Positions 49,901 through 52,900 of a stretch of 64,000 bases of DNA are shown one piece after another. The stretch is from Maylandia zebra (taxonomy: Eukaryota; Chordata; Actinopteri; Cichliformes; Cichlidae). The first letter of the stretch is position 1. Each line of letters opens with the position of its first letter. The notes beneath the pieces are model-generated. The model searched no databases. It saw only the letters and a list, made by a program, of their open reading frames with translations, and was not told the DNA's origin. Both the position numbers and the translations under genes were made by a program. The stretch is from positions 9,591,840 to 9,655,839 of the forward strand of contig NC_135183.1 in NCBI RefSeq assembly GCF_041146795.1. The letters are read 5' to 3'.

Positions 49901-52900
49901 GTATAAGTATTTAAAATATGTAAAATTTGACCTCTCTTCAATCAATAGATTGATCTGAAGGTTGCACGGCTTTAAAAAACTATGTTTCTTAAATAAACTT
50001 GTGATCAAAAATTAATTTTACTAAAAAATGAATTGAATCCCACACATGTCCTATATTAACATAAAAAAATAGGTTTCAGCAGGGCAAATAACAAACACCT
50101 TCACGCTTTGCTTATTTTTGCTGCACTGCAAACTCCTTAAAGTACGTTTAAAAAGAACAGAGATATACAAATGTACCGAAAATACAACACTATTACCTTA
50201 AAGAGTAAATACTGCTTAGAAAGTGACCTCCCTTGGTGGAGGTTTGTGTTCTTGGAGTCCTTTTAGTTTTTTAAAATGTTTTTAATGGAGTTCCTCTAAC
50301 CTCTACACAGAAGCAAAGAAGAATCATTTAGTCTTGTAACATAAGATTAACAAGGGTTACAGAAGGGGACTTTATAAAGATTTCATTTGAGAACGAGAGT
50401 GTTTTGAGGGTCTCATCATTGCAGCTTGGCCTGAAAGTGACAACAAGGACGGGGGTTGGATGGGTTTTGGGTTTGTCTTACAGTAAGGGGCGTGATAGAA
50501 GGCTCTCCAGAGCTGGCGTGGTTGCGGGATCAATTCCCACCGCCAGGAAAATACCAGTCAGCATGTTGTGTTCTTTCAACTCGCTATAATAACAACAACA
50601 CACACGTACACACATACAGTAAACAGGCTCATAAATGTTCAAATGTTTGTGCGTACATGCATGCACATGCAAGTAACTGCAGGGAAGTATCTGAGGTCAA
50701 ACCTGAAAAAGCCTTTAAAAATCAAAAGGTGTACAAATCAACATGGCGGCGTGTTTGTGCGTACAACTTACAGGCCCCTGCGCTGTGTGCCGCGTTCGGT
50801 CTCCTCCGGTGTCTCTGCGTCGGCGGCAGAGAGCAGGATGACATGGCGCCCGTACACGCACATCGACCGCAGGCCGATGAAGAGCTGCATCCTGAGCGCA
50901 CAGACCTCCAGGCTGCAGGGTGGGCAGGCCTTACACACACACACACACACACACACACACACACACACACACACACACACACACACACACACACACACAC
51001 ACACACACACACACACACACACACACACACACACACAAATGTTAAATGTGTTCTCATTTACAGACATGTAATAACAATCCATACAGATATTAGCGCCACC
51101 AACTGGATCTCTGCAGTGAGGGGAGCACTGAGGCTGAACTTTCTTTTAAATTAGCTTCGCTTATTGTAAATGCCAGGCTCATACCTTCATGGTCGTATCG
51201 ATGTAGGGGTCTTCAATCCTGGCTGCTAGAGCTGCACATCGTACTGTAAAACACTGCAATGCACTCCTACCAGCCACACAGAGAAATGTACTTGTAATCC
51301 ACAAAGAAAGTAAGAACCACAGATTAAAAAATACACACCAACTTTTCTGTATTTGGGTATAATTGGAATATCATGGAAATAAGGCTTGATGGGTTTGATG
51401 AAAAAGGTAATCTATCTGATGTTTGGTGAACTGTTGAATTTAGAGCCCTATTTTTTTTAAACCCGTGTAAAATGTAAATACACACAGAATGCAGGCTCCT
51501 TCAAGGCTGCAGACATACTTTGTTATAACGTGCAACAGGTGGTCTGTTAGCGCCGCCTCCAGGACCTTCTCTGGATACTGATATGCTGACAGGAGCTCAA
51601 CTCCACCCTTCAGACTGTACAGGTAGCCCGTGGTGGGGAGGGAGAAGAAGCAGAACACACATGTCGCTTCATCGGGAGACACTGACTGGTTACCTGGGGA
51701 GAGAGTAACAATCCCTCAAAAACAATGATTGGGCAAAAACGCACACAAGGACAAAAAGAAAAAGGATTATTTTTTACAACATGAGCAAACTGCACCGAAA
51801 TGTGAAGGTGCTGTAGAAATACCACAGAGATATCTCTATAGCAATGAAGCTTTACATGCACTCATCACGGGCATGAATGTCATGGTATGACACTTCACTG
51901 AAATGCAATGGTTTTTTAAAGTCATTAAGGATGCGTGCTGTGCAATCATTTCACACTAGAGCAAAACAAAGAGTTCAAAACATCATTAAAAGTCCAAAAT
52001 TACCATGAGATTCATGCCTGTGATGACTGAATGTAAACTCCTGAACATACTACAATGTCTCAGAAAAAAAAAATTCCATTTCTCCTCATTTCAAAACAGA
52101 TCATCTTCCACTGTTAACTCGACACTGATGTTGTACTCACCAGTGAAGAACGGGTAAAGCTGCAGGGAGTGAAGCTGCATCTCATCCATGCTGCATCCTT
52201 GGAAGAACTCTGGAGAAAAGTGCCTGCAGGACCGGAGGGAGTTCAGTCAAACCTCAGCTGGGAGAAATATTCTTAAGGAACAAACTCAGAAGTGCAGACA
52301 CACCTGAAAAGAACGTAAGAAAGTGCATACTGCCTTCCTTCTTCCAGCCCGGTTTTTTCAATGCTAACTGGGATGTCGCAGTCTTTAGCTCGATCGCCAA
52401 GTAACTCCTGGTGTCTCGGAACAACCAGAAAGTCAGCCTGGTCTTCCAGATATTCTGCTGTGCATGCAGAAAGATCACAGATTGCATATCACAGGTCACT
52501 CCTACATTTGATAAAATGTCTCATGCTCTGCTGCATGTGGACAATTTCAAAGTATGAGCTTGAATGCATTTTTTATGTTGTTTTCTTAGTATTAAATCTG
52601 TAGAATAAAACCAAAAAGAATGCTTGAGAACTCTGTAAAAATGTCTAATTGACAGCTTCAGTAATGTAATTCATATTCATAAAGGTCTCTGTACTCATCC
52701 CTTTCTAGTTAAATAGAAAAAAAAATCACCCCAAAGCCACGACTTAAAACACATTATAGAGCATTTACATGTGTGCCGTTACCGTTATTTGTGTCCAGTG
52801 GTTCCTCCAGGGTTTGGGGTTCAGAGGTTTCATCCAGTTTTAATATCAAGACTTCCAGCTCTCCTTGCACAGCCACATATGTGTCGCACAGTGCCACCTA

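Follow-up and report, generated by a model that had tools for sequence, protein, structure and literature searches.

At the acceptor of human APOA2 exon 3, a (GU)16 repeat reportedly replaces the pyrimidine tract, in work said to be that of Mercado et al. in 2005 and of earlier reports. In CFTR, a T tract stands between the TG repeat and the AG. Fish introns bridged by AC and GT sequences are said to have been described by Lin et al. in 2016. Splicing of APOA2 is placed under the control of TDP-43 (PMC6349704), and CFTR exon 9 (now exon 10) is described as having a length-variable TG repeat at its acceptor, with skipping tied to repeat length (PMC10165737). Also described are fish bridged introns with AC and GT arms (PMC12962679; PMC7404189) and the canine merle allele of PMEL, a SINE insertion that carries a poly(A)/poly(T) tail and whose effect has been proven to depend on length (PMC7349775). 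In humans, exons are documented that have an AG-free zone and a branch point 100–400 nt upstream, the AG taken being the first one below the branch point (PMC1431707); further distant-branch-point exons comprise OGDH in fish, and others (PMC7969005).

The locus compared here with these systems is an acceptor of HPS3, a pigment and lysosome gene, in Maylandia zebra. About 52 GT units run up to the terminal AAG of the intron and take up nearly all of the distance from the likely branch point to the exon. As in APOA2 exon 3, a GU repeat occupies the position of the pyrimidine tract beside a constitutive acceptor; in contrast, the HPS3 repeat has about 52 units where APOA2 reportedly has 16, and it reaches within 3 nt of the exon, forcing a distant branch point. 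The comparison with CFTR exon 9 drawn in an earlier note on this DNA holds in one respect, since in HPS3 as well the TG repeat adjoins the acceptor, and fails in another: the T tract of CFTR is missing, the repeat running directly into AAG, and the repeat is much longer. The GT tract at the 3′ end of the intron recalls the fish bridged introns, but the complementary AC tract at the intron 5′ end is missing. An AC arm was sought in the intron, but it contains no CA run of at least five units; along the gene strand between 56300 and 40900 only two such runs occur, one of 10 nt at 48876 and one of 12 nt at 40982. With merle PMEL, HPS3 shares a slippage-prone repeat at the acceptor of a pigment gene, which in PMEL is a SINE tail and here a GT repeat.

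With distant-branch-point (AGEZ) exons, HPS3 shares an AG-free zone, here 123 nt long (criterion at least 100 nt), which has a motif for branching near where it starts upstream and the acceptor as its first AG. The HPS3 zone differs in being a microsatellite without a pyrimidine run by the predicted branch point, and its intron is shorter than the 350-nt intron limit used in the survey of such exons (PMC1431707). Because no pyrimidine tract lies beside the branch point, HPS3 exon 12 is filed as a variant of AGEZ exons and not as a member. Among the best-ranked literature matches there was nothing on this HPS3 tract, and the combination of GT repeat, acceptor, intron and cichlid gave no match. 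The tract is notable mainly because it offers a naturally occurring test of branch-point distance.

Results

The HPS3 locus and its GT tract

HPS3 is coded on the minus strand of the window, the whole stretch of 64,000 nucleotides that was analyzed. The identity of the gene, as proposed in the earlier note, is borne out by profile matches: HPS3_N or HPS3_C was found in 9 of 10 open frames of a first batch and HPS3_N in 3 of 10 of a second (one at 21.2 bits, below the curated cut-off of 26.2). Genome-wide, all 9 HPS3_N places found lie at this locus (962,127,851 bases in 63 contigs, the genome used for all whole-genome counts). In the profile scan of open frames, the exon upstream of the intron matches HPS3_N positions 374–411 and the exon downstream matches positions 407–462; the overlap of the two falls within translated tract. 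A solved HPS3 chain, sought with two fragments, was not found (the single match, E 0.68, is unrelated). The search against Rfam gave nothing reaching the gathering score, and ARAGORN gave no tRNA.

The exon that follows the tract had been numbered 13; it is counted here as coding exon 12, since the count takes in coding exons only and leaves 5′ untranslated exons out. The sixth coding exon was read off a single open frame that no profile matched by itself. At a few HPS3 boundaries, 51685 and 46311 among them, a choice was made between close candidates.

Minus strand: starts of coding exons 1–6, at 56207, about 56070, 55672, 55388, 54409 and about 53173
Minus strand: starts of coding exons 7–12, at 52897, 52457, 52197, 51685, 51266 and 50929
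51185..51266, minus strand: HPS3 coding exon 11, ending ATGAAG/gtatga in phase 0; HPS3_N up to position 411
50930..51184, minus strand: intron before exon 12, 255 nt, 105 of them tract
50933..51037, minus strand: perfect GT tract of 105 nt (CA on the plus strand; TRF), free of A and AG
50930..50932, minus strand: AAG acceptor, closing the GT tract
50772..50929, minus strand: HPS3 coding exon 12, 158 nt, donor CCT/gtaagt; HPS3_N 407–462

The earlier description of a 105-bp (GT)n tract of some 52 units followed by AAG at the intron end agrees with the TRF result at 50933–51037, (AC)52.5 with 100% matches, and with the gene-strand reading, in which ...CACATTTAACATT is followed by 105 nt of TGTG...GT and then by AAG/GCCTGCCCACCCTGCAG. 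The span first given for it, 50925..51037, starts inside the exon and is replaced by 50933–51037. The AAG acceptor also sits within a donor-like GTAAG (50930–50934), so that, judging from the motif, competition from U1 snRNP would be conceivable there.

Other repeats occur in the window. At 44031–44130, in a later HPS3 intron, lies another long and perfect tract, which reads (AC)50 on the plus strand and thus GT on the gene strand; the next exon placed (42423) is well over 1 kb away. Two minisatellites with related units of a 21-bp type were found by TRF at 10287–10894 (29 copies) and 22249–23116 (about 40 copies). Read by hand on the plus strand, the unit of the former gives Thr-Thr-Ala-Ala-Pro-Thr-Thr, which has a mucin-like look; over both arrays, the lists of open reading frames hold reverse-strand frames only.

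Choice of the splice junction

Three further AGs were considered as acceptors (negative positions are upstream of the acceptor, positive ones within the exon).

50913..50915, minus strand: rival acceptor CAG, 17 nt into the exon, frame-breaking
51053..51055, minus strand: GAG at −123, a rival acceptor that keeps the frame at the present tract length and would add 41 residues, mostly Cys-Val
51111..51113, minus strand: CAG at −181, a rival acceptor or a decoy, preceded by a stretch rich in C and T and leading to an early stop

When the exons are joined at AAG/GCC, the frame is open for 241 residues and HPS3_N matches in one stretch at 223.4 bits. The profile score falls to 195.9 bits in two stretches at the in-frame GAG at −123, to 145.3 bits at the CAG at +17 and to 140.0 bits when exon 12 is skipped. 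Use of the CAG at −181, a junction outside those scored against the profile, leads to a stop after seven codons. Since the AAG combines the highest HPS3_N score with an open frame, it is supported, as judged from the conceptual translation, as the acceptor that the protein calls for. Two further points of the earlier note stand: the exon (50929..50772) is 158 nt long and leaves a remainder of 2 on division by 3, so that skipping shifts the frame, and the CAG 17 bases inside it breaks the frame, the joined sequence meeting a stop.

Branch point and AG exclusion zone

Upstream of the AAG, the nearest As are at −111, −113 and −114, and the bases between −111 and −3 are free of A. The closest AG on the upstream side has its final base at −123, and none follows before the acceptor. 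This AG exclusion zone of 123 nt is the largest among 19 HPS3 acceptors, the next being 83 nt. AG-to-AG gaps of at least 123 nt make up 21 of 25,592 in a 200-kb sample and 9 of 8,273 in the window.

51041..51045, minus strand: predicted branch point TTAAC, A at 51042 (−113), the sole high scorer below the last upstream AG

With branch-point weights that are approximate and were typed from recall, TTAAC ties for the best score with two CTAAT motifs (−222 and −161). It lies near the upstream end of the AG-free zone, which starts at −123, and only TTT separates it from the GT repeat, leaving no pyrimidine tract beside the predicted branch point. By the first-AG rule, TTAAC would lead to the AAG and CTAAT at −161 to the poor GAG at −123. 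Because the tract contains neither A nor AG, it must lie between the branch point and the AG, a point absent from the earlier account. Together with the standing of TTAAC as the only high scorer below the last AG, this means that tract length would set the branch-point-to-AG distance at two bases per unit. The computed position of TTAAC is −21 with 6 GT units, −33 with 12 and −113 at 52.

Strength of the acceptor

To compare acceptors, models in two versions (columns and pooled tract) were built from 19 other HPS3 acceptors; these models are small and insensitive to runs, and some of the training acceptors were themselves choices between close candidates. For the AAG, the columns version gives 4.8 (left-one-out median 4.1) and the pooled-tract version 6.7 (left-one-out median 7.3), a mid-range result that does not support its earlier label of weak. 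The CTGCAG at +17, held in the same note to look better, scores 5.0 and 3.8 and is not clearly better by HPS3's own acceptors. The CAG at −181 (6.5 and 6.8) outscores the AAG in both versions, as does the CAG at +38 (8.8 and 7.1), and the GAG at −123 is lowest among the nine AGs compared (−2.0 and −2.1). Of 926 gene-strand AGs, 105 or 46, depending on the version, equal or exceed the AAG.

The claim that a normal pyrimidine tract is lacking holds for runs, the longest at this acceptor being 1 as opposed to at least 3 in each of 18 other HPS3 acceptors. It does not extend to T content: the T fraction of the tract, 0.52, falls within the range of those 18 (0.24–0.67). The C fraction is 0.00, and the lowest value among the 18 is 0.05.

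A stable fold of the tract or of the intron was also considered and is unsupported by nearest-neighbor folding against shuffles, a method that does not cover UG quadruplexes. Such quadruplexes, which require about 12 G (PMC12962679), are possible at the tract.

Expectation by chance

CA/GT tracts are common in this genome, with 259,292 forward-strand and 247,619 reverse-strand overlapping matches to (CA)16. The 100 places listed correspond to 10 tracts, of which one exceeds 100 nt, and extrapolation from these 10 tracts among the matches listed gives about 50,000 tracts of at least 32 nt in 962 Mb. With an assumed 200,000–250,000 exons, roughly 5.3–6.6 acceptors would be expected, without selection, within 10 nt of a sense GT tract of at least 100 nt, an estimate that takes its proportion of long tracts from a single one of the 10 tracts among the matches listed. 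In a separate 200-kb sample, just one tract reached 32 nt or more, so the estimate may be too high. Chance alone can yield one such exon, and the HPS3 tract is a chance-compatible oddity.

Discussion

The tract is probably best explained as an ordinary GU-rich acceptor of HPS3 that was lengthened by microsatellite slippage, with branching at TTAAC (−113) and joining to the AAG. The spliceosome would most likely use the predicted branch point just above the tract and would join to the first AG downstream, which is the AAG that closes it. Because the repeat contains no A and no AG, its growth would bring in no additional branch point and no decoy acceptor and would thus be tolerated, each GT unit merely moving branch point and AG two bases further apart. 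Inclusion may be modulated by proteins that bind UG, for example TDP-43 or CELF. The near positions that TTAAC would take with 6 or 12 units, as opposed to its position at 52, suggest an ordinary acceptor stretched from within. We infer the use of the branch point, the growth history, the protein binding and any effect of length; the growth history, drawn from one assembly, is a guess. Several features count against a stretched ordinary acceptor. The proposed branch point has no pyrimidine run beside it, unlike those of verified distant-branch-point exons, the CAGs at −181 and +38 score as high as the AAG or higher, and two CTAAT motifs tie with TTAAC.

Tuning of exon inclusion by repeat length is, on the present analysis, a fair hypothesis. 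In its CFTR-like form, the UG tract would be bound by TDP-43 or would fold on itself, longer alleles would skip the exon and HPS3 output would fall; this form is conceivable but doubtful. CFTR skipping rises with longer TG repeats (PMC10165737), and TDP-43 favors long UG repeats and represses exons (PMC11163724). Skipping of exon 12 would shift the frame here. Self-folding, in contrast, finds little in the computed energies: the tract alone is structureless (0.0 kcal/mol with nearest-neighbor energies), the intron with the exon start is less stable than 200 of 200 shuffles (z 3.15), and two shorter cuts lie near the shuffle means (z 0.27 and −0.04). In addition, the T tract of CFTR has no counterpart at this acceptor.

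The remaining alternatives move the splice itself. If another acceptor, the CAG at −181 or that at +17, were mainly used, the transcripts would be unproductive. Both have the CAG form and the one at −181 outscores the AAG in the same-gene model, but both shift the frame and reach stops in a gene that is otherwise coherent, and the +17 junction retains only the low HPS3_N score given above, which makes their main use very unlikely. Translation of part of the tract, through use of the GAG at −123, 38 nt below CTAAT at −161, is an extremely improbable reading. At the present length the frame would be open, the Cys-Val run would be translated and CTAAT at −161 is among the motifs tied for the best branch-point score; the GAG, however, is the poorest acceptor compared, the profile match is lowered and split, and two of every three tract lengths would break the frame.

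As it stands, the HPS3 tract is a single chance-compatible example that resembles known repeat-bearing splice sites. It is unlikely that the microsatellite, lying between the sole usable branch point and the first AG, serves as a heritable ruler, natural alleles grading how often a frame-critical exon is included and, through this, the dose of HPS3 in the fish of one population. Gain or loss of one unit would then shift the branch-point-to-AG distance by exactly two bases and leave the signals at either end unchanged. GT repeats would be among the few that can lengthen within an acceptor and introduce no decoy AG or additional branch point in doing so, and a single locus would provide, in its alleles, a natural series on how the branch-point-to-AG distance limits splicing. 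Since loss of HPS3 lightens pigment in mammals, an effect could be visible.
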